Part shown: positions 1 to 52,975 of the stretch, in pieces
Layout: each line of letters begins with the position of its first letter
Position numbering within the stretch: position 1 is the stretch's first letter
Assembly: GCA_038503065.1 (NCBI GenBank)
Contig: JBCAMK010000002.1
Coordinates: 1,302,001-1,366,000, forward strand
Length of the DNA stretch: 64,000 nucleotides
Direction: 5' to 3'
Origin: Paragyromitra xinjiangensis
Lineage: Eukaryota > Ascomycota > Pezizomycetes > Pezizales > Discinaceae
Translations under genes and position numbers: made by a program
The notes under the pieces: model-generated
The model's input: the letters and a program-made list of their open reading frames with translations, nothing else
Told to the model about the DNA's origin: nothing
Databases searched by the model: none

Positions 1-1615
1 ACCTTTCAGCTGCAGCTGCTGGCCGCTCACCGGTGTTGTGGAGAGGCTGAGCAAAACCAGTGAGCATTGATCGTTCTTGGCTGTGGGGAATTCATTCAGC
101 CCTGGGTCCACGTCGACGCCCGATGCTAAATATAGAAACCGCTTGGTGCGCCGCCAGCACTAAGAGTTTCTAGTCTTGGCATTTTTTGCCAGCATTTTAA
201 TCCTCGACCAGAGAATAAATATCATGATAACCTAAACCTATGGGCAGAAAGCTGTTTTCTGTCGGGCATTAGCGAGAAAAATGAATGCACATCGTTCATC
301 ATAATAATTATAAGCGCTGGTAGATAAGTGTAACTTTTTGAGACTGCAAGGCTGCTGAAACAACGGCACGGAGGCCGGAGTCAACCAAAGATTATTCCTC
401 CGCAAATGAAAAATGTACATATTTATTATCCAAGTCTCAGCACGAATCCTGGGAACATCGCATCTATGTTATGACCGGCTAACGAGGTTACACACTTGGC
501 CATGGCTGAAGCAATGCAAGTACTCTACATGTAGGTACTAGGTACCTAGAGCCCCTGAGGCAGGGAAACAAATCATCAAAATACACTGCCACTATCGTCA
601 CTCCTAGCCCTGTAATTACGCTTTTTAGCATGAAAAAAAGAATATCCTGTTGAGTAATACATGTGGTTTAGAGTAGTTAATCAGAGATAGCGCAAGACCG
701 CACCTACCAACAAATCAGCGCTATCAGCTGCACGGTCAAGCTATCAAGGATCTGCGATTGTAGTCGGCATAAGCAATTGCACTATACTAATATTTAGGGT
801 TAGGGTCGTCTTATTATTGCTTTTCAAATCCGGAGGGGTTATAGAGAATAAGGCTAATAACTACTGGTTTCGTTTAGAATTCAAACTTAAAGCGAAGGGT
901 CATGTGTGTGAACGATACTAATTGCATGTAATATCTAAATGCTTTCTGTTCATTCTACACCTGTATCGATCTAAACCCCACTACATATACTTTGGGTTGT
1001 GGGGGTGGAGGGTTTCTGGGCCAAAGTCACGTGCAATCACTCGTTCCGTCCTTGCTTGTCAAGAGAGTGCTTTCAAATTTGGTGTTGTGCGAGTGTATGT
1101 ATGTATGGACAAAGCATTGGAGCCAGCTCTTTGTGGCTCGGGAAACAAAGGTTGAACAACATGTCTTAAATAGAATAGGTCGCCTGTCATAACAAGGAAT
1201 CAAGCGAGCGAGCTTTGCTTTGTGCCTGGTAATTCAATAACTCTCTTATGCCAACACCTCTCCGCAAAGGCTCTTAGGTGACCACCCCCTCCTTATTGTA
1301 AAGCTTTCCTAAGACGTGAAGGTAACTCTATTATGATACCTGTGTTCTATCTATACTCCTGCATGAATATCTGCCCCATCTCCGCATATAACTGTTAGTG
1401 TTAGTCTATATAGTTGCAACCAACTCCACAAAACTCCCGCTTACAGTAGCTGATCCAACCAAAAAAATTGATGGAAAGCAGAAAGAAGAAAATATAGGTA
1501 AAAACACAGCCCACTCCTTTTATCCAGAGACTTACACCCACCTCTAGAAGAAAAAAAAATCACCAAGCACCCCGTTAGTAAATCACAGCCCCAACCCATT
1601 ATTTTTCAACCCTAT
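1..1615. other. Gene-poor stretch left of the rap1-like gene
   Basis: I see no convincing coding frame here; open frames are short and lack domain signatures. Around 794-808 there are two tandem TTAGGG units, the fungal telomere motif. Around 525-548 there are overlapping palindromic TAGGTAC/GGTACC words. The segment 1440-1615 is probably the 3' flank of the minus-strand gene that ends at 1616. Confidence 0.6.
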
Positions 1616-3549
1616 TTAGGCCATATTCCATAGATTCAAAAAATCCATCCTTTTTTCCATATGTGCCGCCCCCTTCTTCTCTTGTAGATTCTTCATCTCC
1701 CTGCTATCCGCTCCCATCAGTACTTTATCCTCCTCCTCGCTCCATATACCAGGGACATCAGTCGGCAGTGGCTTATCATCAACCACGCTCTGCAACACCA
1801 ATTCGACGAGCTTTTTAATCCCGCTTGCGCGTTCGACGGCATAGATGACCTGCTTCTCAGAGGTCTTGTATTTCTTTTGGCAGTAAGCTAGGAATGTGTT
1901 CATTTCCTTGATACCGTCGGGGTCGTCTTTGGATGGCGATAGAGGTGGCGATTTGGAAGCAGAGCCGGGTGCCGGAGCAAGGAGTTTTGTCGGCGTGGAA
2001 GGATTCTGCTGCACCGCAGGTTGTGGCGATGGCGATGGCGCAGGAAGGAGAGGGGGGGAGGAAGGAGTGCCCGGAATTTCGGGGAACTCCAATAAAGAAT
2101 CGGCATCAGCCTGGTCATAGATCGCTTGTGTGCTCATTTCGGCATATCTCAACTTTTTATTATCCTTAGGGAGTGGAGGTGAGCTTGCTAGATGATGTGC
2201 TTCACTGCCCAGAAGCTCAGGGGAAAGCACACGAGACCGCGGAGGGGACTCTGACTCCGGGTCTGGCGTGGATGCGATTTCACCCATGTTTCTGTAGGCG
2301 TTTCTAGATTTCTTCCGTTGTTCTGGCGCGATGTCAGAATCCCGTTTACGTTTTTGAGTAGTCGGCGGAAGTTCGGATGGAAGTTTCGGGGGAGATGAGG
2401 GAGGGATTGGGCCAACGTCTGTATCTTCAGCTACGGAGGCCTTGTGAAATTCTGCTCTCCAGCGCGTGATATGATCTGACGGTTTCTGGGTTTTCACTGT
2501 CGATAGAGAGATCGCTGATAGAGAGGCTTTACTCGAAACAGTTGAGGCAGCCCGCCTTATAGGTGTGGTTGGATGATGAGGTGGAGAGTTGGATCTAACT
2601 TTGCGTTGCTGATGAGACGCTGGTGGCTTACCCTTGTCTTTGCTCGTGGGAGTAGGGGTATCATTTGGGCGGTTTCTTATGTTGACGGTACGAATGGGGG
2701 AATTTTGGACTGGGGTAGACGGCTGCTTCTTGGGTTTCAAGTCCAGGGAACCTGTCGGTGGTTGGGGCTTGATTTCGGCCTTCGGTTTGGGTGATGCTTT
2801 ATCCTCGTTATTTAGAGCTTTAGACTGTTGTTCGGAATCCCTATGGCGACCTCTAGATTCCGTAGTTGATCGCTTTTGAGGTTTCACGGATTTCTGGAGA
2901 GCTTTCTTTCGATTTAGTCTGGGAAGTATCACACTGGTGAAGTGGGCACGCCATTGTTTCGCTGTGTGATTTGGGTACTTTAACAGTTCAGTTAGTGTAT
3001 TGTGCCTATGGTGATATCTCATGATGAGAAAAAAAAACCGATTACCCACTGCTTTGTTCAGTCGCTCATAGATACTAATTTCTTGAGGATCGAGTGCTAA
3101 AATATCCGCCCACTTCTCCAGCTGAGCCTCGTCCTCCTCAGTAAATTCTTCCCCTTCTCTTTTAATCTTTATTCGTTCCTCGTCATTTTCTTTCCGATCT
3201 TTGTCTTTGGTTTCTGCCTGTTTTCTTTTTGGAGCTACGGGCCGCCCATCAGGCATATTCTTGGCAAGTTGATCTACCCAGCGGCTACGCCAGCTGTGCA
3301 TTGTGTGGTTTGGATACTAAGATTCGTAAGTATAAATTGCCGAAATTTGGGTCTGGAATACGCACCTCATCAGCAATTCTTTTGTAGATGGCGGCGCCAT
3401 TGTATTTTACGCCTGGCTCAGAGATGATTGTAAGAAGAATGTCATCATCTTCTTGAGTAAAAAGGTTGCGGCTGTAATTGGGCGCAATTAGTATCTATCA
3501 TCCGCGCTAACCTGTAGGAGAAGGAGAAGAAGGGAGGAAAGAAGGGCAT
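1616..3549 (-). CDS. rap1: Rap1-type telomere-binding protein (Myb domains plus Rap1 C-terminus)
   Basis: Three exons: 3549-3512, 3471-3366 and 3316-1616, separated by introns of 40 and 49 nt. The phases agree and give about 614 aa. The first intron joins a short leader (MPFFPPFFSF...) to RNLFTQEDDDILL. The second splits the first Myb-like domain, whose end reads YPNHTMHSWRSRW, the Rap1-family 'HT..SWR.R' signature. A second Myb-like block follows (HTAKQWRAHF, about residue 155). After that comes a long Ser/Pro/Lys-rich linker, and a C-terminal domain around PGIWSEEEDKVLMG resembling the Rap1 C-terminal protein-interaction fold. In this family the protein sits at telomeric repeats and recruits silencing and end-protection factors. 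I see no N-terminal BRCT domain. Domain identity is confident; the first exon is short and less certain. Confidence 0.85.
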
Positions 3550-39137: not shown

Positions 39138-40178
39138 ATTAGTTCAGGGAGATGATAAGGTGAGCTTGTAGTTGGACTGGGCCACCCATTCTTATAACAA
39201 ATTAGATATGTAAGAAACTCTATGACTCGTTGCTTGCGAGGGGTTATGATGTTCTCAAGATAACATGGGTCCATTCTTAGTACACAACACAAAAGATCCA
39301 AACTACTAAGCGCTGATCAGGTGCACGATGCAGGAAGCACAGCAAAAGAAACGAGCGCTGAGTGATTTTGCTTCTTTGGCATAAGTGCAGATCGGATACA
39401 CGACGCGGGAAGCACAACGCAGGAAGCAAGAAATAGGTTGCAGCAGGGACGTGGCATGCGCCAGCAGCGTCACACATAAACGCCGATCGGTCTTGGCAAA
39501 TGGAGGTGCAGATTGGATACACGACGCAGGATGCAAGAAACAAGTCGCATCAAGAATATGACGCATCAGTAGCGTTACACATAAGTGCCGATCGGTCAAT
39601 GCAAAAGGAGGTGCAGATTGGATGCACGACACAGGAAGCAAGAAACAGGTCGCATCAGGTGTCAGTAGCGCCACACATAAGTGCCGATCGGCCATGGCAA
39701 AAGGAAGTGCGGATCGGGTACGCGGCACAAGATACCAGCATGACAAATGGGCAGGTATTACTGGGATCTTTGCACGCGGTTTGGGCATTTTTTGCCTATC
39801 TAGCATATGCGCCGATCGGATACATGACGCAGGACGCACGACGCAGGATACACAGCAAAGGAATCAGGGAACAGGCCCCACCAAGGGAGTGCACGCACTA
39901 AAGGGACCAAGCACGCACCGAATCCGATCGCCGGACAGCTTTGCCTGTTTAGTAAGTGCTACTGGTAAAACCTCGCTAGGCCGTTGCAATCCACCACAGC
40001 CCTTCACTTTGTTCAGGGCACACTTCACTCAGGCGTTGAGTGTTGACTGGACATAGTATAGAAAATACATCAAAATGAAAGATAAGTGTCATTAGGGGGG
40101 AATCGGGGTCCGAAGTATATAGTGAGGAGTAGACAACTGGTGTTTTCAAGGGCGCTAAAGGTAAACATTTCTTTTACA
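39138..40178. other. Gap dominated by degenerate tandem repeats
   Basis: There is no supported gene. Most of the interval is the repeat array listed below. The final 140 bp are the promoter side of the micro-exon gene. Confidence 0.6.
39360..39860 (+). repeat. Degenerate tandem repeat, about 95-100-bp unit
   Basis: About five diverged copies of a unit containing GTGCAGATYGGATACACGAC, a GCAGGAWGCAAGAAACA segment and GCCGATCGG. Copies start near 39385, 39508, 39610, 39706 and 39805. Most differences are C/T or G/A. Open frames run across it on both strands because it is short-period and stop-poor, so I do not call it coding. Confidence 0.75.
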
Positions 40179-42929
40179 ATGAGTTCTACCAACGATTCTC
40201 TTGACATCATGGGGTTCCCACCCTATCAGCGTTCTTCAATGATAAACACTAGGCTAGGAATGGGCTATGGAACGCTGCCTTCTTCGTTAAATTCAAACAA
40301 TTACTTGAACCGTACCCTCTTAACAAGTATTTCTATCTTTTGCCTAGACATATCAAAACATATATATTAACTACGGACTTTAGGAGAAAGAGAAGGAGAA
40401 AGAGCGGGAGTGGAAGAAGGAGTGGTAGAAGGGGAAGAGGAAGAAGAGGAACTCCCCGATTCGCCAGGAACCGCGGGTTGTGTAGCAACACACTTTGCCA
40501 AGTCCATTCCCGAATCTCCCCAGCCCTCGGCCCCGGCCCCGGCCTCCTACCGCTTTCCAGTAGATGATGGCACTCGGACGGGTTGTGTAGCAACAAAGTC
40601 CATTCCCGAATCTCCCCAGCCCTCGGCCCCAGCCCCGGCCTCCTACCGCTTTCCAGTAGATGATGGCACTCAGACGGGTTGTGTAGCAACAAAGTCCATT
40701 CCCGAATCTCCCCAGCCCTCGGCCCCAGCCCCGGCCTCCTACCGCTTTCCAGTAGATGATGGCACTCAGACGGGTTGTGTAGCAACAAAGTCCATTCCCG
40801 AATCTCCCCAGCCCTCGGCCCCAGCCCCGGCCTCCTACCGCTTTCCAGTAGATGATGGCACTCAGACGGGTTGTGTAGCAACAAAGTCCATTCCCGAATC
40901 TCCCCAACCCTCGGCCCCGGCCAACGGCAGAAGTGAAGATAAGGATCTCATAACTGTATCTAGTGAGGCTCCGCTATCGCTAGTCCCTACATCTCCACGC
41001 GGTGATATTGAAAATCATCAGAGTGAGCGCGGGGTGCTCCAAGGTATGCTTTGACTGCTTGTCTTTGTCAACTGAGCTAACAGCACCAGCCGCGAAAGAT
41101 AATTTGGAGCGTAAGACAAAAGAGTGCGAGGACTTGAAGGTAGAGCTGGAGTACTACAAAGGTATGCACGCCCTAGCCACTTATCAACCGAGCTAACAGC
41201 ACCAGCCGCGAAAGATAATTTGGAGCGTACGAAAAAAGAGTGCGAGGACTTGAAGGTAGAGCTGGAGTACTACAAAGGTATGCACGCCCTAGCCACTTAT
41301 CAACCGAGCTAACAGCACCAGCCGCGAAAGATAATTTGGAGCGTACGAAAAAAGAGTGCGAGGACTTGAAGGTAGAGCTGGAGTACTACAAAGGTATGCA
41401 CGCCCTAGCCACTTATCAACCGAGCTAACAGCACCAGCCGCGAAAGATAATTTGGAGCGTAAGAAAAAAGAGTGCGAGGACTTGAAGGTAGAGCTGGAGT
41501 ACTACAAAGGTATGCACGCCCTAGCCACTTATCAACCGAGCTAACAGCACCAGCCGTGGGAGGTAATTTGGAGCGTACGAAAAAAGAGTGCGAGGACTTG
41601 AAGGTAGAGCTGGAGTACTACAAAGGTATGCACGCCCTAGCCACTTATCAACCGAGCTAACAGCACCAGCCGCGAAAGATAATTTGGAGCGTAAGACAAA
41701 AGAGTGCGAGGACTTGAAGGTAGAGCTGGAGCACTACAAAGGTATGCACGCCCTAGCCACTTATCAACCGAGCTGACATCACCAGCCGAGCCGACATCGC
41801 CAGCCGAGCCGACATCGTCAGCCGAGCCGACATCGCCAGCCGAGCCGACATCGCCAGCCGAGCCGACATCGCCAGCCGAGCCGACATCGCCAGCCGAGAC
41901 CGATGATTTGAGACGTGAGGCAGAGCTGGAGTACTACAAAGGTATGCACGCCCTAGCCACTTATCAACCGAGCTAACAGCACCAGCCGTGGAAGATAATT
42001 TGGAGCGTAAGACAAAAGAGTGCGAGGACTTGGAGCACTACAAAGGTATGCACGTCCTAGCCACTTATCAACCGAGCTAACAGTACCGGGACGATAATCT
42101 AGAGCGTAAGACAAAAGAGTGCAAGGCCTTGATCACAGAGCTAGCGGCTGAGAGAGGTATGTTCTCGCCACTTATCTTACTCGCCAAGCTGACGGCCCCA
42201 GACGCGGTTGATGAGACCAATATCGAGAAGAATAGACTCTCGAGGTCCTACAGAAGTATGCTCTAGTCACTTATCTTTATCAGCCAAGCTAACAGTGCCA
42301 GTTGCGGCCAATAACATGAAACTTCTGAAAGAAGAACTTACGGTCCTGAGAAGTAACGATGGTATGCTTTGTCCATCCCCATTTTTAGCCAAACTAACAG
42401 CGCTAGGCTTTCTCAAGGATGTTTGTGCTTCTGCTTTGGAAAGTATGGTTGTAGTTTCCGTTCCCAACAGCGCTAGCTAACAGCCCTTAAGATCAACAGA
42501 AATATTTCGCCGATAAAGGAGGTAAAGCTTTGATCGGTATGGCGCCACAACTCTGTTACCCATCCACACCAGCTAACAGCCCTAGACCAGTGCCAACACC
42601 TCCAAAATTTCGCGCGATGTCTAAATATGTTTATTGATAGCGCGGAAAAAAGTATGACACCTCAATCTTGTTTCGTAGCCCTGGCTAACAGCGCTTCAGC
42701 CCAAAAAACGAATTTGGAGGGAATCGAAAAGTGCACTATGTATATGGAGCAATCCATCACCAATACCAACGCCTTCATTGAACAGATGGAATATGGCTCA
42801 CTGGGCTTTAACAAACTAACTTTGTTTCTCGCGGCTTTCCTTTTAATTCTGGGGACATTTCTGGGAGTGTTGGGACCGGTGTTGGGACCGGTGTTGGGAA
42901 CGGCGTTAGAGCGGACGTTGCGATTCTAG
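40179..42929 (+). CDS. Micro-exon gene: repeat-built Pro-rich/coiled-coil protein with C-terminal membrane anchor
   Basis: Seventeen exons, 686 aa. Exon 1 is 40179-40326 and exon 2 is 40384-41043. Then come six 78-nt exons (41084-41161, 41200-41277, 41316-41393, 41432-41509, 41548-41625, 41664-41741). Next are 41786-41941, 41980-42045, 42103-42156, 42202-42255, 42296-42361, 42401-42442, 42492-42536, 42580-42651 and 42700-42929. Every internal exon is a multiple of three and all introns are phase 1, 38-57 nt, starting GTAT and carrying CTAAC or CTGAC before the acceptor. Exon 2 encodes 32-residue Pro-rich repeats (KSIPESPQPSAPAP). The 78-nt exons each encode a charged helical 26-mer beginning APAAKDNLER. 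Exon 9 encodes PTSPAE repeats. The last exon ends in a hydrophobic stretch (LTLFLAAFLLILGTFLGVLG) like a membrane anchor. No family is recognised. Confidence 0.75.
40486..40915 (+). repeat. 96-bp coding tandem repeat, four copies plus partial
   Basis: GTTGTGTAGCAAC recurs at 40582, 40678, 40774 and 40870, exactly 96 bp apart. An incomplete first copy starts near 40485. Copies are nearly identical (one G/A change in ACTCRGACGGG). The unit is 32 codons, so copy number can change without breaking the frame. Confidence 0.92.
41044..41741 (+). repeat. 116-bp exon-intron tandem repeat, six exon copies
   Basis: Each unit is a 78-nt exon plus a 38-nt intron (GTATGCACGCCCTAGCC...GAGCTAACAG). Exon starts lie at 41084, 41200, 41316, 41432, 41548 and 41664, exactly 116 bp apart. 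Copies differ at only a few positions (for example GTAAGACAAA versus GTACGAAAAA, and GTGGGAGG versus GCGAAAGA in the fifth). Intron sequences are as conserved as the exons, so duplication is recent or the copies are homogenised by recombination. Confidence 0.93.
41780..41905 (+). repeat. 18-bp tandem repeat encoding PTSPAE
   Basis: Seven copies of CCGACATCGCCAGCCGAG, one with a TCGTCA variant. They form most of exon 9 of the micro-exon gene. The exon is 156 nt, which equals two 78-nt units. Confidence 0.9.
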
Positions 42930-43417: not shown

Positions 43418-45493
43418 CATCAGCAAAATGAATTATTTTCTCCCTGAGCTCCAGGAGGCTCGGGATCGCCAGGAGGCTTGGGAGACCCGTGGAGAATATG
43501 TGCCTACCTGGAGGAGCGATTCGCGACCAACCTCCTCAGGGAGGCACACGCAGGAGCAGCAGGCACTCCAGGAGACTCTAGGAGATCGATATAGGCGCTC
43601 CCAGCGTGCCATGGAGAGCTGTAGAGAAGCATAAGTTACACCTGTCACCCTTCTCAATTCACTGATGTCACGCTGTCACTCAAGTTTTGGAGAATATTTT
43701 GAATATTATTATTGACTATCTAAAGGATCTCTATACATCGAACGAGCCCCCGCATCCTCCTGCCTGCCCTACTGCATCCTACTCCTCCTATTCCGAGTCT
43801 GCTGCTGAGCTTGCCGTGGAGTCGATTCGGAGGCAGGCAAACAGCCAATTCAGCCGTGGATTCGGAGGCTCAGAAACAGCCGATTCGGAGGCAGGAAAGC
43901 ACGGGATTCGGAGTCTATTCAGCAGTCAATTCAGCAGTCAATTCAGCAGGATTCAGAGGCTTAGAAACAGCCGATTCGGAGTCTATTCAGGAGTCAATTC
44001 GGCAGTCAATTCGGCAGTATTCGGAGTCTATTCAGCAGTCAATTCAGCAGTCAATTCAGCAGGATTCGGAGGCTTAGAAACAGCCGATTCGGAGTCTATT
44101 CAGGAGTCTATTCGGCAGTGGATTCGGAGGCTCAGAAACAGCCGATTCTGAGTCTATTCAGGAGTCAATTCGGCAGTCAATTCGGCAGGATTCGGAGGCT
44201 CAGAAACAGCCGATTCGGAGTCTATTCAGGAGTCTATTCGGCAGTCAATTCGGCAGGATTCGGAGGCTCAGAAACAGCCGATTCGGAGTCAATTCAGGAG
44301 TCTATTCGGCAGTGGATTCGGAGGCTCGGAAACAGCCGATTCGGAGTCTATTCAGGAGTCTATTCGGCAGTGGATTCGGAGTCTATTCAGGAGTCTATTC
44401 AGCAGTCAATTCAGCAGTCAATTCAGCAGTGGATTCGGAGGCAGGAAAGCACGGGATTCGGAGGCTTAGAAACAGCCGATTCGGAGTCTATTCAGGAGTC
44501 TATTCAGCAGTCAATTCAGCAGTCAATTCGGAGTCTATTCAGGAGTCAATTCAGCAGTGGATTCGGAGGCTCAGAAACAGCCGATTCAGGAGTCTATTCA
44601 GCAGTCAATTCAGCAGGATTCGGAGGCTCAGAAACAGCCGATTCGGAGTCGATTCAGGAGTCTATTCGGCAGTCAATTCCGCAGTCAATTCCAGAGTCTA
44701 TTCGGGAGTCAATTCGGAGCCTATTCAGGAGTCAATTCAGCAGTGGATTCGGGGGCTCAGAAACACCCGATTCGGAGTCAATTCAGGAGTCAATTCAGCA
44801 GTGGATTCAGAGGCTCGGAAACAGCCGATTCGGAGTCTATTCAGGAGTCTATTCAGCAGCCTATTCAGCAGTAGATTCGGAGTCAATTTGGGAGTCAATT
44901 CAGCAGTCAATTCAGCAGGATTCGGAGGTTTAGAAACAGCCGATTCGGAGTCTATTCAGGAGTCAATTCGGAGGCAAGCAAGCAGTCGATTTGGAAGCTG
45001 GAAAGCACGGGATTTGGAGGCAGGCGAGCAGTTGATTTAGCCGTGGATTCAGCAAGGGGAGTGACGGGGCCTATTAAGAGTTAGCTACTGTACAAAACGA
45101 CGCGTCTATGGTGGAGATGTAGGAGAGGAGGAGGTATGGGCATTGCTCAGAGGGTTAAAAGGGGGTGGGTGAATAGGGGCGGCGTGGGTGGGTTGGGGCA
45201 GCAACGGGGAGTTGAAAGAAATTCTTCTAAGTCCCTAAGCGAGATCCAATAGTCTGCGATTCAGGGAGTCTCTTGCAGTGGTGTTGAGGTCCAGGAGTGG
45301 GATGGAGGCTCAGCATCGTGCCTTTGGCTCATGGAGTATACAGCATATCTCGGAAGAAGCCATATCCTCCAGGAGATGCAGGTCGGGCGCTCGTGCCTCC
45401 AGGCGCCCTGGGAGCGCACGGAGCACCTGGAGGAGATTGCCTCCCCGGGAGACATGCCCATGCTCCTGGAGGCGTTAATTATTTTTACTGATG
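43418..45493 (+). mobile_element. TIR element with internal ATTC-rich array, copy 1 (2076 bp)
   Basis: The left end CATCAGCAAAATGAATTA and the inverted right end CATCAGTAAAAATAATTA form an imperfect terminal inverted repeat of about 18 bp. It is flanked by AT on both sides (43416-43417 and 45494-45495). Both subterminal regions (43440-43620 and 45350-45480) are packed with CTCCAGGAG-like palindromes. The interior 43800-45030 is a tandem array. Copy 2 at 48385-50695 shares both ends and nearly all unique sequence. No transposase is encoded, so it is non-autonomous. Confidence 0.8.
43800..45030 (+). repeat. Short-period array (about 15 bp, GGAGTCTATTCAGCAGTC-like)
   Basis: Interspersed units such as GGAGTCTATTC, AGGAGTCAATTC and CAGCAGTCAATTC recur every 12-15 bp, punctuated by GAGGCTCAGAAACAGCC. 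Because the period is a multiple of three, long frames (SIQESIQQSIQQ type) open in more than one phase. I do not treat these as genes. Confidence 0.85.
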
Positions 45494-45627
45494 ATGATCT
45501 AAGCACGTGACAACCAGAACATGGAAAGCGAACGCTTCGCTGGCAGACCGGGTAACTGAACTAAGGATAGCAGATAAGCCCCCACCTCGCCAAACCCACA
45601 ACATCAGCAACCAACAACCACCGCACT

Positions 45628-46470
45628 ATGGAAACAACTGACGCCTTAGCTCCCAGCAATACTAGCATGCCTAACTTGGCCTCAGCCTCAGCCTCGAAAA
45701 ACGCTGCCGACTCTTCAGAAGCCGTTGATACAGAATATATCCCAATGCCCTCGAATGAGATCAGCACTATCTCCGTGGAACACTTATTTATGAATATTCT
45801 AGGGCATACATGCATAGACGACAGAATGGAGATATACGTCCGTCAGTGATTACCCTCTCGGATAGCAAGGAAAAACCTGAACGGGAGGGCTAATGTGGCC
45901 TTATAGATGCTAGGGATGTTTACGGTGCTTTTGGGTTTGATGGCGAATGCACTTTTGATCAGCTGCCCGCGAAGGATATAGAACTCGCTATTGAGCAACT
46001 TGGGGAAAGGCTATATAAGAAGGACTCATTTCACTGGCACTGTGAGCCATGGCTTGCGCGTTTTTTGCTCTGGAGACGACACGAATTGATGACATCTACA
46101 AAGCCTGTCCCACCCCCTCCAAGCAAGAACGGTCATATTTCTGCGGCGGAAATATTTATAAACTTCCTGGACTTGCCGGTGCGTGCCGAAAGAGCGATCG
46201 TAAATGATGGTGAGTAACTATCAAGAGAAAGAACCCGAATAATAGAGACTAACACGATTGTTAGTTGCCTACGACATCTACAAAAAAGCCAGTTTTAATC
46301 CTATACTTCCTTATGGCTCGCTACCAACATTGCAGCTTGAAGAGGCCACGGAAGCGCTTCAGGAAGCGCTAAATAAAGTCCACCCACCCTGTCGGCGTTG
46401 TCAGCCGTGGCTTGCGCCATATCTTATGCGTAGATTAAATAAGGGGAGAGGCCGGAGAGAGAGGTCTTAG
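45628..46470 (+). CDS. Unrecognised protein with two Cys-x-PWLA motifs
   Basis: At least two and probably three exons. The start METTDALAPSNTSMPNLA leads to about 45840. A coding segment from about 45909 (DVYGAFGFDGECTFDQL) to 46211 is joined by a GTGAGT...TTAG intron (46212-46264) to VAYDIYKKASFNPILPYGS and a stop at 46468-46470. HCEPWLARFLLWRR before the intron and CRRCQPWLAPYLMRR at the C-terminus look like an internal duplication of a Cys/Trp-containing helix. The junction between the first two segments (45800-45908) is unresolved and contains frame conflicts, so the gene may be damaged. No family is recognised. Confidence 0.45.
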
Positions 46471-47348
46471 AGTTTGGGATGTTATTTCGTTGAAGTCATC
46501 AAGTTCGCCGGATCTCCTTTTAGCTAGTTGGTCTGGGTTGATTACCTACTGAGGCTGAAGCCGTGGTAAATTAGTCGGGAACAAAATGTAAAACTGTTGT
46601 GAGAATAAAATTAAGATTCGTCACACTCCCAGTTTCGTCACACCCCAGGAGCGACTCTAGTAGTGTACTCATGCTGTCGAAAAGTCTTCGTGTCACGTGA
46701 TAGATAGCGTGCAGTTAAACCCCAATAACTGGCTGTTATTCTGCACGTGACACGAGGACTTTTCGGCAGCACGAGTATTCTCCTAGGCTCGCTTAAGGCG
46801 TCATGTGATCTTTAACCTTCTCTATACTCTACTGGTAGTCGCTTAGTCACGCACCATGATGAGATGAACACAACCTAATTATAAAACAACCGCAAGAGAA
46901 ATTTCGGAGTAACCAATCAAGAACAATATCAGAGCGAGCAGAAAGGAGCTTTTTGAGCCCAAATTGTCTGGTCAGCAATGGACTGTGTTTTGTGGATGCA
47001 CGGAGTATCACTCGCTGCATAACTAAGCGCCCACAATTGTATCTTGGTAAGGACAACCTAATTTGGGAACTACTCAGCAGTCATCGCCTAAACGCTGGTG
47101 TATTCACAAACAAAAGCACGTTATACAAAACATTATCCCCTAACACTTGGTGGTACTAAAGCTGCATACAAGTATCAAGCAGAACGAAAGGAAAACAGAC
47201 CGCTAAGATAAAATGAGGCCAAAAACCCCTCCTAGACCTCCAGAAAAACTTCATGCACAAATCTTTCCTTCCAATACCCCTTAATCGCATCCTGGCGTAG
47301 AGGCATACGGATGCGGAGTCTATTTCTGGTATTGTATTTTGACCGAGG
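46471..47348. other. Gap holding one MITE
   Basis: There is no gene. The inverted-repeat element at 46668-46775 is listed separately; the right part is the 3' flank of the patatin-like gene. Confidence 0.55.
46668..46775. mobile_element. Tc1-type MITE with TA duplication (108 bp)
   Basis: The arms are inverted copies of CTCRTGCTGYCGAAAAGTC extending through YTCGTGTCACGTG, about 32 bp in all. TA lies on both flanks (46666-46667 and 46776-46777). Arm differences are all transitions. There is no coding capacity. Confidence 0.75.
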
Positions 47349-50300
47349 CTATCGTGACCTAGTACGCTCCTGATTAACTTTCGCTCCAGAGCATTGCCGT
47401 TTCGCCCGTAGTGGATCTGCAGGGGGGTAGTTTGATTTCCGTTTTGAGTGATTGGCAGCTCCGAATATAATATCTAAGCCTTGGGCACAGATCAAGGATG
47501 TCATCGAAGTTGGGAATCCACTAATACTTCGTGGCTTAGTAGATTTGCTCCCTAAAGAGATGGATACTTCTTCGTCTAAATCTTTAACACTAAAAGAAAT
47601 TGTTTCTCTGAATGCCCCACTTGATGATTGTGAAACCCTTGTTATAGATCTTTGGCCTAAGAGGAAATGTGCTGAATTTTGGGATAGTCGGGCGAGAAAT
47701 GCCAGTTTTCGAGCTCCGGTAAAGCGACAGATCAAGCGGCCAACACATTGATATCGCCCTTTGTAGTATATTGGCGATGCCTCCAATTCGAAATAGAACT
47801 GTTTCGCAATGAGTGACTCCGCCACGTCAATCTTGTTTCCCGTTTCGATCTGTGTTTTACCCTTTTGCTGTAGTTCTTGCATCTTGTCGACATCATCTAT
47901 AGCTGGTTCGCTGCCGTCGAATCTAATGTTAAACCGGAAATATTTGTCTTTTACTTCCTTTGGGAGCCGGTTACAGAGCTGTTGCCATGTATCTTCACCG
48001 TCCATAGAGGTCAGAAACAAACGAACAAGGCGAGAAATAAAGCCATCTCTCCATACACCTCTGGGGCCAAAAGATTTTCTAGCCAGATCGGATGCTGAAC
48101 CTGTACCCATGGACAGAACAATATCCAGTATACTCTCGTTCGGCCATATTACTCTTGATTCCCATAAAGCGATGTTTAGTGGATTATTGTGGCGGAGGCC
48201 CCCATCTTGAAAAGTGCCTAGGCCTGGGAGGTGTTTTGGTTTGAAAAACCATGGAGCAGCAGAAGTGCATCGAGCACTAATACTTTTGTCAGTACACCAT
48301 AGGATATTGGATATTGTACAATCTTACGCTTCCCAGACAGAGACCTTCCTCGAGTTACTCTTAATCACTGTGTACCCTAGACAACATCAGCAAAATGAAT
48401 TATTTTCTCCCTGAGCTCCAGGAGGCTCGGGATCGCCAGGAGGCTTGGGAGACCCGTGGAGAATATGTGCCTACCTGGAGGAGCGATTCGCGACCAACCT
48501 CCTTAGGGAGGCACACGGAGGAGCAGCAGGCACTCCAGGAGACTCTAGGAGATCAATATAGGCGCTCCCAGCGTGCCATGGAGAGCTGTGGAGAAGCATA
48601 AGTTACACCTGTCACCCTTCTCAATTCACTGATGTCACGCTGTCACTCAAGTTTTGGAGAATATTGTGAATATTATTATTGACTATCTAAAGGATCTCTA
48701 TACATCGAACGAGCCCCCGCATCCTCCTGCCTGCCCTACTGCATCCTACTCCTCCTATTCCGAGCCTGCTGCTGAGCTTGCCGTGGAGTCGATTCGGAGG
48801 CAGGCAAACAGCCAATTCAGCCGTGGATTCGGAGGCTCAGAAACAGCCGATTCGGAGGCAGGAAAGCACGGGATTCAGAGGCTTAGAAACAGCCGATTCG
48901 GAGTCTATTCAGGAGTCAATTCAGCAGTCAATTCGGCAGTATTCGGAGTCAATTCAGCAGTCAATTCAGCAGGATTCAGAGGCTTAGAAACAGCCGATTC
49001 GGAGTCTATTCAGGAGTCAATTCAGCAGTCAATTCAGCAGGATTCGGAGGCTCAGAAACAGCCGATTCGGAGTCTATTCAGGAGTCAATTTGGCAGTCAA
49101 TTTGGCAGGATTCGGAGGCTCAGAAACAGCCGATTCGGAGTCAATTCAGGAGTCTATTCGGCAGTGGATTTGGAGGCTTAGAAACAGCCGATTCGGAGTC
49201 TATTCAGGAGTCTATTCGGCAGTGGATTCGGAGGCTCAGAAACAGCCGATTCGGAGTCTATTCAGGAGTCTATTCAGCAGTCAATTCAGCAGTCAATTCG
49301 GAGTCTATTCAGGAGTCTATTCAGCAGTGGATTCGGAGGCTCAGAAACAGCCGATTCAGGAGTCTATTCAGCAGTCAATTCAGCAGGATTCGGAGGCTCA
49401 GAAACAGCCGATTCGGAGTCGATTCAGGAGTCTATTCGGCAGTCAATTCAGCAGTCAATTCCAGAGTCTATTCGGGAGTCAATTCGGAGTCTATTCGGGA
49501 GTCAATTCGGAGCCTATTCAGGAGTCAATTCAGCAGTGGATTCGGGGGCTCAGAAACACCCGATTCGGAGTCAATTCAGGAGTCAATTCAGCAGTGGATT
49601 CAGAGGCTCGGAAACAGCCTATTCGGAGGCAGGAAAGCATGGGATTCAGAGGCTTGGAAACAGCCGATTCGGAGGCTATTCAGGAGTCAATTCAGCAGTG
49701 GATTCAGCAGTGGATTCAGAGGCTCGGAAACAGCCGATTCGGAGTCTATTCAGGAGTCAATTTGGCAGTCAATTTGGCAGGATTCGGAGGCTCAGAAACA
49801 GCCGATTCGGAGTCAATTCAGGAGTCTATTCGGCAGTGGATTTGGAGGCTTAGAAACAGCCGATTCGGAGTCTATTCAGGAGTCAATTCAGCAGTCAATT
49901 CGGCAGTATTCGGAGTCAATTCAGCAGTCAATTCAGCAGGATTCAGAGGCTTAGAAACAGCCGATTCGGAGTCTATTCAGGAGTCAATTCAGCAGTGGAT
50001 TCAGCAGTGGATTCAGAGGCTCGGAAACAGCCGATTCGGAGTCTATTCAGGAGTCTATTCAGCAGCCTATCCAGCAGTAGATTCGGAGTCAATTCGGGAG
50101 TCAATTCAGCAGTCAATTCAGCAGGATTCGGAGGTTTAGAAACAGCCGATTCGGAGTCTATTCAGGAGTCAATTCGGAGGCAAGCAAGCAGTCGATTTGG
50201 AAGCTGGAAAGCACGGGATTTGGAGGCAGGCGAGCAGTTGATTTAGCCGTGGATTCAGCAAGGGGAGTGACGGGGCCTATCAAGAGTTAGCTACTGTACA

Positions 50301-52804
50301 AAACGACGCGTCTATGGTGGAGATGTAGGAGAGGAGGAGGTATGGGCATTGCTCAGGGGGTTAAAAGGGGTGGGTGATTAGGGGCGGCGTGGGTGGGTTG
50401 GGGCAGCAACGGGGAGTTGAAAGAAATTCTTAAGTCACTGGCGAGATCCAATAGTCTGCGATTCAGGGAGTCTCTTGCAGTGGTGTTGAGGTCCAGGAGT
50501 GGGATGGAGGCTCAGCATCGTGCCTTTGGCTCATGGAGTATACAGCATATCTCGGAAGAAGCCATATCCTCCAGGAGATGCAGGTCGGGCGCTCGTGCCT
50601 CCAGGCGCCCTGGGAGCGCACGGAGCACCTGGAGGAGATTGCCTCCCCGGGAGACATGCCCATGCTCCTGGAGGCGTTAATTATTTTTACTGATGAAGGG
50701 TTAGTGCGTATAGAAACCGGAGATATTCCCACATACCACACTCGGCCGATCGGGTTCCCATGCCACTATAACTAGAAAATATACATGGAGATGAATCTTC
50801 AACTGTGGTAGCTGTCACAGCCACTTTCGTTCCGAAATTGCATGATTCAGACCAATCGAGCATAGCGCTGGTACCGAAGGCATCTTTAAGAGCAATCTCC
50901 AAGCTGGTGGCCCCGTATCGACTATCTGCAAGATATGAGACTAGAAATTTCTGAAATTTCTGTAAGAAAGGGATGCCAAAGTCCCGGGGCCTAAAAGCTC
51001 TTCTAGCCAGTGTGACAAAATTCTCCAAACACTCTTCCACGGACCAGCCGTTGAGAAACAATCCGAAAACAATCAAACCACCTACCCTATTAGTGATTTT
51101 GCTTCGAAGGGTAAGTGAGGGCCTACCTGAACTTGTTCCATACGCTAAATCGAAATTTTCCTGGATGGGATAAGATAAGCCGGCCAGCTGATTTATTGAC
51201 TTCTCCAGCTCGTGTAGGGTTGATAACGGTACGACCCCACGTATCCCCCCTCCATCGATGCTTAATACTCTAATGCCTGCTGTTGGAGGTTTAATTTGTG
51301 CCTTAAAATCCGAGAAGCCGGTACCACAAAGAGGGCATCGGTCGATCACAAATGTATGCGGTTCCATAAGCGCCGAATGCCCAAACACTTGGATACAAAT
51401 CTCACACACAGCATGACCGCAAGGAAGGCCTTTCTCAGGCCCACGAGCAAGACAGGAGAAACAAGTTATCTCGCTTCTTAAACCCCTCCAAACTTGCCTG
51501 TGGTTTGCGAGCGTTTCACGGTGTAGTTGTGCAGAAGTTCTATGATTTTTTTCGAAATCAAGGACGAGGATCCTGAACTGACATTCAAGAAGAGGCGTTA
51601 TCGAAGCAATAAAGGCATGTTGCTGTCCATATAATGGGTGGGTTCGAATAGCGGCATCGCAGTGGCCTTTGTAAAAAAGTCTAAAAGTACACGCTGGATC
51701 GAAAACTAGAAAGCACATCCTTAGTCACCGCCTTAGTCACCGAACTACGGATGGTGACGACTAACCATGCATACCTGGCGGGTTGCTATCCAAAAATAGG
51801 CTTGAGGCAATTAATGGGACGCCAGAGTTGGTTATCTCAGTTTCTGTCGACATCTGTCCCAGAAGTTCGGCGAGATGCTGTGAGAATGCCTGTGGTATAG
51901 GATTTCGAAGTCTTGAGAATTTAACAAAGTCAACAGGTTCAGTAATTGTATTCGAGAAATGATCACATGCATGTTTGAAAAGAGCTGAAAAATGTTCTAA
52001 GGAGAAGAGATATCGAGCCTCTTTGCGCTGCATTTCCTCCACCGCGGGGAGTATGTGGTCTAAGAGCGCTTGGGGTTTTCTGGGAGAGATGTGCAATACC
52101 GTCAAATTGGAAAAATAGGCCGAAATTTCCCCATTGAAGTGCAGCATTTCTAATAAAAACTGTTTCGCAATCAAGTTCGCATGAGGAGGAATGGCAGCAC
52201 TGTCCATCACAACAAATACAATTGGATGGACCACCTGAGGCAATGTCGATGCATTCCCCTTACGCATCAACGCTTCCAAAAGCCCTCCAACACCTACAAG
52301 GCCCCCAAAATCTGAGGAGAAAATACATATTACGTCAGTGAAAGGCGCCAGGAGGCGAGCTAATACATTTTCCGCCACATTTTCCGCCACATTTTCTGGT
52401 GTGAGCTCTTTCCCTGATTGATTGGTCCAGGACAAGGGCCTCCAAAATATTTCGTGGCAATTAATATCAAAATAGGATTGTTCGTGTTGGATCTGTCCAG
52501 GAAATGTGTAATCTGCTAGTAGGACGGGGGTTTTGTGGTTAATGGTAGGAGGGTAAACATGAATATGGACGTCGGCGTGACCTTGACCCCTCATAGATTT
52601 GGGCGGCGAAATCAACACCCTCACTACATTCGTTTTAAAACTTCCACCAACCAAAGCGATTAAAGATGGGGTTTGGGTCGAAGGATTTGGAAACACATTT
52701 AGCGCCAATAGACTTTGAAGTCTGTTGAATTCTAATAACATGGTGCCATGCGAACCAGTCGTAGAGCCAGCCGCAAGGCCGAGCCATGCTGTATGTTTAC
52801 ACAT
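47349..52804 (-). CDS. Patatin-like phospholipase with RING-like finger, split by a transposable element in an intron
   Basis: Five exons: 52804-51775, 51705-51127, 51081-50737, 48376-48328 and 48282-47349. They are phase-consistent and give 978 aa. Residues 1-343 form an N-terminal domain (LIALVGGSFKTN, VLLADYTFPG) found upstream of patatin in large fungal proteins. A C4/RING-like cluster follows (CFSCLARG...CGHAVCEIC...CPLCG). The patatin domain has IDGGGIRG (oxyanion loop), the nucleophile Ser in GTSSGG completed across the 51082-51126 intron, and the catalytic Asp in FQDGGLRHNNP. The family hydrolyses acyl lipids and is frequent Starship cargo. The third intron (48377-50736) is 2360 nt because it contains the 2.3-kb repeat element; without it the intron would be about 47 nt. 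Whether it is still spliced is unknown. The start may lie in an earlier exon. Confidence 0.8.
48385..50695 (+). mobile_element. TIR element copy 2 (2311 bp), inside the patatin intron
   Basis: Same termini as copy 1 (CATCAG...CTGATG with TIR of about 18 bp), flanked by AA on both sides (48383-48384 and 50696-50697). The unique left 400 bp and right 450 bp match copy 1 almost base for base. The internal array is longer and differently arranged (about 48780-50245). Host gene sequence resumes directly outside both ends and joins in frame, which fixes the insertion point. Confidence 0.85.
48780..50245 (+). repeat. Short-period ATTC-rich array of element copy 2
   Basis: Same units as in copy 1 but expanded by roughly 200 bp and rearranged, including higher-order blocks (the segment around 49080-49190 recurs near 49750-49860). 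Confidence 0.85.
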
Positions 52805-52975
52805 CTCTGTAGTTTTTTTTAGGGTTTCGTTATTCAGTCAACCATCAAGATATATGTTTGCATGATTTTATAGGAATGGACTCAACGGGTTCAGGGTCGA
52901 AAATGGAATAGGTACGGGGGGAGCCGGAAATGGATGCGGATCCAAATTCAGCAGTGTACTTATTTTTGTCTCTGA

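Follow-up and report, generated by a model that had tools for sequence, protein, structure and literature searches.

In the 64,000-nucleotide stretch of Paragyromitra xinjiangensis DNA analyzed here (the window; contig C2:1302001-1366000 of a 48.2-Mb, 22-contig assembly), positions 40179 to 42929 of the plus strand are likely to hold the gene of an orphan, probably tail-anchored fungal protein, the middle of which was built by in-frame expansion of an exon-intron minisatellite. At the center of the gene lie six tandem copies of a 116-bp unit, each composed of a complete 72-nt exon and a complete 44-nt intron. We base this view on the anatomy of the gene, the homology amongst its units, a difference in copy number between two loci as assembled, and a relic of the gene elsewhere in the genome; transcription, constitutive splicing and protein function are inferred. 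Gene coordinates are given as window positions throughout.

Gene model and splice sites

From the ATG at 40179 to the TAG at 42929, a per-exon phase table yields 17 exons and 16 GT...AG introns joined in a single open frame, as the original prediction, made from the sequence alone, had proposed; the coding sequence, however, amounts to 2001 nt (666 amino acids) rather than the 2061 nt then reported. All 16 introns lie in phase 1 and all 15 internal exons have lengths divisible by three, both as predicted, and by frame any one of these symmetric exons could be removed or duplicated without a frameshift. Exon lengths (148, 660, 72 x 6, 156, 60, 54, 54, 60, 36, 45, 66 and 230 nt) exceed at both ends the 42-156 nt originally given for internal exons, with exon 2 reaching 660 nt and exon 14, the only internal exon of micro-exon size, measuring 36 nt. 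Donors begin with GTATG in 15 of the 16 introns, and the branch motif near the acceptor is CTAAC in 13 and CTGAC in two, intron 1 carrying TTAAC instead, so the near-universal signals described earlier held up. Retention of an intron would bring in an in-frame stop in 12 of the 16 cases.

The true acceptor in most introns is probably the second AG after the branch site. We prefer this distal AG because it lies at a mostly constant distance from the branch A (9 nt in 12 of the 16 introns and 11 nt in two; 13 and 22 nt in the remaining two), because a proximal AG is missing from introns 8 and 11, and because introns 14 and 16 hold phase 1 with the distal AG and lose it with the proximal one. Proximal acceptors, only 3 nt past the branch A, were rejected: they fit ten introns, are absent from introns 8 and 11, and forfeit phase 1 in introns 10, 14 and 16. 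Placing them in ten introns reproduces the figure of 2061 nt (10 x 6 nt). With distal acceptors, the introns measure 44-57 nt and the repeat units 24 residues, which replaces the earlier values of 38-57 nt and 26 residues. The weak point of the model is intron 10 (57 nt), which has lost the AG at the standard distal position; its acceptor is assumed to be 42102, the nearest that keeps phase 1, and this junction, picked from the frame, is the least certain. For the alternative acceptors 42083 and 42089, no open gene model was found. The resulting features are as follows.

40179..42929, plus strand: whole coding gene, 17 exons and 16 phase-1 introns, distal acceptors
40179..40326, plus strand: exon 1, 148 nt, without a signal-peptide-like hydrophobic stretch
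40327..40383, plus strand: intron 1, 57 nt, GTATT...TTAAC...TTTAG, differing from the other introns
40384..41043, plus strand: exon 2, 660 nt, an acidic part followed by a proline-rich part
40500..40922, plus strand: 96-nt coding tandem array in exon 2, 4.4 copies, without introns
41044..41089, plus strand: intron 2, its 3' half forming the start of the 116-bp array
41068..41788, plus strand: 116-bp tandem array, 6.2 copies, exons 3-8 and introns 3-8 (Tandem Repeats Finder, TRF)
41768..41903, plus strand: 18-bp array, copy 1 being the branch-site/acceptor end of intron 8, with six coding copies in exon 9
41786..41941, plus strand: exon 9, 156 nt
41942..42102, plus strand: intron 9, exon 10 (60 nt) and intron 10 (57 nt, acceptor 42102 assumed from the frame)
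42103..42651, plus strand: exons 11-16 (54, 54, 60, 36, 45 and 66 nt) with introns 11-15
42652..42699, plus strand: intron 16, 48 nt
42700..42929, plus strand: exon 17, 230 nt, with a hydrophobic C-terminal segment (possible tail anchor)

Repeat arrays, the second copy and the relic

The 116-bp array begins within intron 2 and stops at the start of exon 9, and TRF scored it at 97% match over 6.2 copies. Its six complete units differ from one another at 7 of the 72 exon positions and 2 of the 44 intron positions. Since copying a whole exon together with a whole intron repeats the intron phase, and only exons of 3n nt keep the frame, uniform phase 1 would follow from such copying; by the same token, the shared phases are not independent evidence, because exons 3-8 are tandem copies.

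At the downstream edge of this array, the last 18 bases of intron 8 (CCGAGCTGACATCACCAG) form the first copy of the 18-bp array that continues into exon 9. The branch motif CTGAC reads CCGAC in all six exon 9 copies, which encode AEPTSP repeats, one of them as AEPTSS. We take this as direct sequence evidence for duplication of the acceptor-end segment of an intron into coding sequence.

We compared the cores of ten introns after removing donor and branch/acceptor signals, omitting introns 4-9 as copies of intron 3. Seven of the 45 pairs reached the shuffle floor (P = 0.002, uncorrected), every one of them amongst introns 2, 3, 10, 11 and 12. Intron 13 weakly resembled introns 11 and 12 (P = 0.03-0.04) and intron 15 resembled intron 16 (P = 0.012), and in this ten-intron comparison introns 1 and 14 had no core partner at P below 0.05. 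Judged by their cores, duplication accounts for introns 2-12, and a common origin of introns 13-16 with the unit is possible. The tidy run of symmetric exons thus appears to have arisen largely as a side effect of repeat expansion, and need not signal a special splicing system.

A second copy of the gene lies on contig C17, within an inverted syntenic stretch that pairs the window from 30920 to its end with C17:432773 to 404241 and extends to at least C2:1376000. The main pieces on either side of the gene are 99.5% and 99.6% identical, and identity further rightward runs from 85.8% (one 705-nt piece) to 99.1%. The duplication appears to have limits on both sides, because window positions 1-3000 and C17:446001-449000 gave a single match each and C2:1460001-1461500 gave 37 matches, of which no second one was longer than about 200 nt; two further probes, at C17:200001 and C17:1001, hit dispersed repeats and were uninformative. 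We consider a duplication likelier than a second haplotype, and the C17 copy may be an assembly artefact. The right end of the inverted duplication falls between C2:1376000 and C2:1460001. Of five blocks of the duplication that were checked, four have mostly transitions amongst their substitutions (transitions to transversions of 35:5, 65:17, 89:16 and 12:1), and the fifth, at 45494-48384, has 5:6.

All three arrays differ in size between the two copies. Relative to C2, the C17 locus has two more units in the 96-bp array (188 nt, two units less 4 nt), one fewer in the 116-bp array, and four fewer in the 18-bp array (two exon 9 copies as opposed to six). Because it lacks one 116-bp unit, the C17 copy would have 16 exons rather than 17. 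Both loci come from the same assembly, in which the C17 consensus may contain errors; subject to the quality of its assembly, gain or loss of an exon-intron unit at the DNA level is supported.

A relic of the gene on contig C10 (62.7% over 185 nt by pairwise blastn) has stops in all three frames read on its strand, and holds two intron-like cores that resemble introns 2, 11 and 12 (P = 0.002-0.008); the link between relic and gene rests on this blastn match and intron comparison. The relic adjoins a relative of the gene's downstream neighbor at 45504-46457 (66.7% over 987 nt), and because the two relatives adjoin on C10, gene and neighbor were probably duplicated together long ago.

The mechanism we propose is that the unit of a 72-nt exon and a 44-nt intron was tandemly duplicated in frame, repeatedly, with uniform phase 1 as a by-product. 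Unequal exchange or slippage would then change copy number at the DNA level, both in the 116-bp array and in the two intron-free arrays, that of 96 bp and that of 18 bp, the latter born from an intron acceptor end. Splicing would be mostly constitutive and would proceed by intron definition, the AG lying 9 nt past the branch A. The product would be tail-anchored and combine a disordered, proline-rich region with a helical stalk built from 24-residue units, and array size would determine stalk length.

Predicted product and competing explanations

By hydropathy, the predicted protein has a hydrophobic segment at about residues 627-657 (best 19-residue mean 2.57), and no N-terminal hydrophobic stretch was found in 19-residue windows starting at residues 1-39 (best mean 0.16; hydropathy was the measure used). 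This distribution, hydrophobic towards the C-terminus and not at the N-terminus, points to a C-terminal tail anchor, through which this could be a membrane protein despite the absence of a signal-peptide-like start. The product initially envisaged, a membrane-anchored, proline-rich and coiled-coil protein, is therefore retained in part: hydropathy favors the anchor and exon 2 contains the proline-rich part, and the coiled coil found no support in a periodicity test of the 24-residue unit. The helical stalk is an idea drawn from composition. Our best estimate is a cytosolic, membrane-anchored protein of variable length, in which repeat change at the DNA level would alter the stalk and the proline-rich parts.

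A Pfam search of the spliced protein (E up to 1) returned eight families. Ribosomal_S27 scored 24.8 bits against a curated cut-off of 22.3, but no single stretch passes, and we took it as a repeat artefact; CATRA-C, Exonuc_VII_L and Nuf2_DHR10-like had stretches of their own that scored under their cut-offs. A protein search with residues 490-666 examined 3254 candidates and retained none at E <= 0.001, and one with exon 17 (E <= 1; 58 candidates) returned a single match, the genomic read-through of intron 16 in the window itself. As a control, a Rap1-like open reading frame (ORF) in the window found nine proteins at 51-58% identity in the same collection, from which we gather that related organisms are represented there as intronless ORFs and that a multi-exon relative could be missed. 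Within the genome, the coiled-coil-like part and the C-terminal part, used as protein queries at E up to 10, gave 20 rows, every one on C2 or C17; C10 gave none. The family is, at the sensitivity of these searches, confined to the C2, C17 and C10 loci.

Several observations weigh against a functional gene built by unit expansion. It is known here from genomic DNA alone; protein searches, which could miss multi-exon genes, found no relative outside this genome; and the C10 relic, searched as DNA against the whole genome, matched itself alone. The 24-residue unit has its strongest periodicity at 3.43 residues, which is not significant (shuffle P = 0.158; P = 0.522 for the 26-residue variant). 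The phase agreement of introns 13-16 is unexplained by demonstrated duplication, because their core similarity is weak or absent. As assembled, the C17 copy is frameshifted in exon 2 and carries single-base deletions in the 116-bp array. Indels aside, substitutions between the two copies number 9 over the 2001 nt of exons and 4 over the 750 nt of introns, and by codon the changes comprise six that alter an amino acid and two that are silent (sites 40767 and 40768 being counted as one codon), so that exon changes show no sign of constraint. The replacement changes, the C17 frameshifts, the dead relic and the lack of relatives would all suit a decaying or recently dead gene, in which the frame is inherited from a functional ancestor and no longer used while the arrays drift as ordinary minisatellites. 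We judge this unlikely, though well short of negligible: the C2 frame is unbroken through 17 exons, and the C17 indels cluster within repeat units, where the frameshifts may be assembly errors in the consensus. Since this account shares the duplication origin and so overlaps with our best explanation, the weights we attach to the different explanations sum to more than one.

The original prediction had favored diversity generated by splicing, with varying combinations of internal exons skipped to make protein variants, as in the micro-exon genes of schistosomes. The symmetry of all internal exons would permit this, and the identical or nearly identical donors and acceptors of the units could allow choice amongst sites; unit duplication alone, however, predicts the same symmetry, and tiny introns, here of 44-57 nt, favor pairing of splice sites across the intron. 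We thus find this account quite improbable. Exon skipping, possible by frame, would be a priori unlikely in fungi, which are reported to show comparatively little of it (PMC6142364), and is unsupported here. We likewise give little credence to a combination of the two processes, in which expansion of the 116-bp unit and exon skipping would together produce a ladder of membrane-tether lengths from one locus, with an intron end turned into an expandable coding repeat. Independent insertion of similar introns from a mobile family, as with introner-like elements, would explain why intron likeness extends beyond the splice signals. It also draws on a looser form of the intron pattern, which gave 45 matches in the genome (11 in the gene, 10 in the C17 copy, 2 in the relic and 22 elsewhere) as opposed to 3 in the control; with 22 of 45 lying elsewhere, this form is not private to the gene, which counts against our preferred reading as well. 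Introner-like elements, however, place near-identical introns in many unrelated genes, whereas all 18 genome matches to the strict pattern GTATG-N(20-40)-CTAACAGCNCNAG fell in this gene (nine), the C17 copy (eight) and the C10 relic (one), with none in the reversed control. The 22 looser matches elsewhere, four of which are one repeated sequence, have cores unlike the gene's introns (judged by eye, not aligned), and in the unit array the exon was duplicated along with the intron, which leaves independent insertion very improbable indeed. A chance open frame through a noncoding minisatellite, to which the repeat-rich region and the lack of database relatives might point, is not credible. In dinucleotide shuffles of the 12 non-redundant exons (exons 4-8 dropped as copies of exon 3, and the arrays of exons 2 and 9 collapsed), the joint chance of all staying open was about 10^-9.6 with splice sites given, a figure that is too optimistic because the frame guided the choice of sites, the true one being less extreme. 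The unique exons 11-17 are open too, and the branch-acceptor geometry is near-constant.

Known systems and genomic surroundings

As described in the literature, schistosome micro-exon genes have some 80% of their coding sequence in symmetric exons of 6-36 bp, and nearly all of their products are secreted or anchored in a membrane (PMC5825161). The present gene shares the symmetry of internal exons (15 of 15) and differs in having 36 of 2001 coding nt in exons of that size, all in exon 14, and no signal-peptide-like start. By the published description it is not a micro-exon gene (PMC5825161, PMC8293314), and the analogy first drawn with that class is weak. Trichoderma Xlr2, the report of which states that no functional microexons had previously been described in filamentous fungi (PMC11121469), has a single regulated microexon rather than a tandem array.

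A closer parallel is the kringle IV type 2 (KIV-2) variable number tandem repeat (VNTR) of LPA, which encodes human apolipoprotein(a) and has a 5.6-kb unit of two exons with large introns (PMC11462820). In LPA the unit of this coding VNTR contains exons and introns, and copy number alters exon number and protein length (PMC11462820). The fungal unit likewise holds one complete exon and one complete intron (116 = 72 + 44), and its copy number would act in the same way. The LPA unit encodes a kringle domain over 5.6 kb, whereas the fungal unit is 116 bp with a single 44-nt intron. SP7-like effectors of arbuscular mycorrhizal fungi, compared by description only, are likewise fungal proteins with imperfect tandem repeats, and that description does not mention introns inside the repeats.

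The link between internal gene duplication and intron gain was reportedly treated by Gao and Lynch in 2009. Intragenic tandem duplication raises intron number, with two cases in fission yeasts (PMC3629103). Duplication inside a gene likewise adds introns here; the new intron there arose from cryptic splice sites within a repeat, whereas an existing exon-intron unit was copied whole in the present case. A fungal exon-intron minisatellite was not found in the literature searched, the coverage of which excluded most subscription journals.

If transcribed, this locus would be a compact fungal coding VNTR whose unit carries its own intron, and intron number would differ between two near-identical copies in one genome. 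It would offer a test case for how the spliceosome pairs sites across tiny introns when facing several identical consecutive ones, and it shows the acceptor end of an intron becoming a coding repeat. It also serves as a warning that a run of symmetric exons in the same phase can be mistaken for a splicing system where repeat expansion explains it.

Just upstream of the gene, at 39462-39657, lies a 105-bp tandem repeat of 1.9 copies. Downstream, two related insertions at 43418-45493 (2076 bp) and 48385-50695 (2311 bp) are absent from the syntenic C17 copy; their ends match each other as imperfect inverted CATCAG termini, 2-bp target duplications (AT, AA) seem to be present, and their interiors are made up of short repeats that have diverged. 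Both resemble non-autonomous DNA transposons that carry minisatellites. Flanking the second insertion, within 47352-52837 on the minus strand, are two weak patatin-like matches, one at 27.8 bits (cut-off 27.7) and one below the cut-off at 24.7 bits. The Rap1-like ORF used as a control encodes a Rap1-like telomeric protein at 1619-3313 on the minus strand (Rap1_C, E = 3.4e-18).
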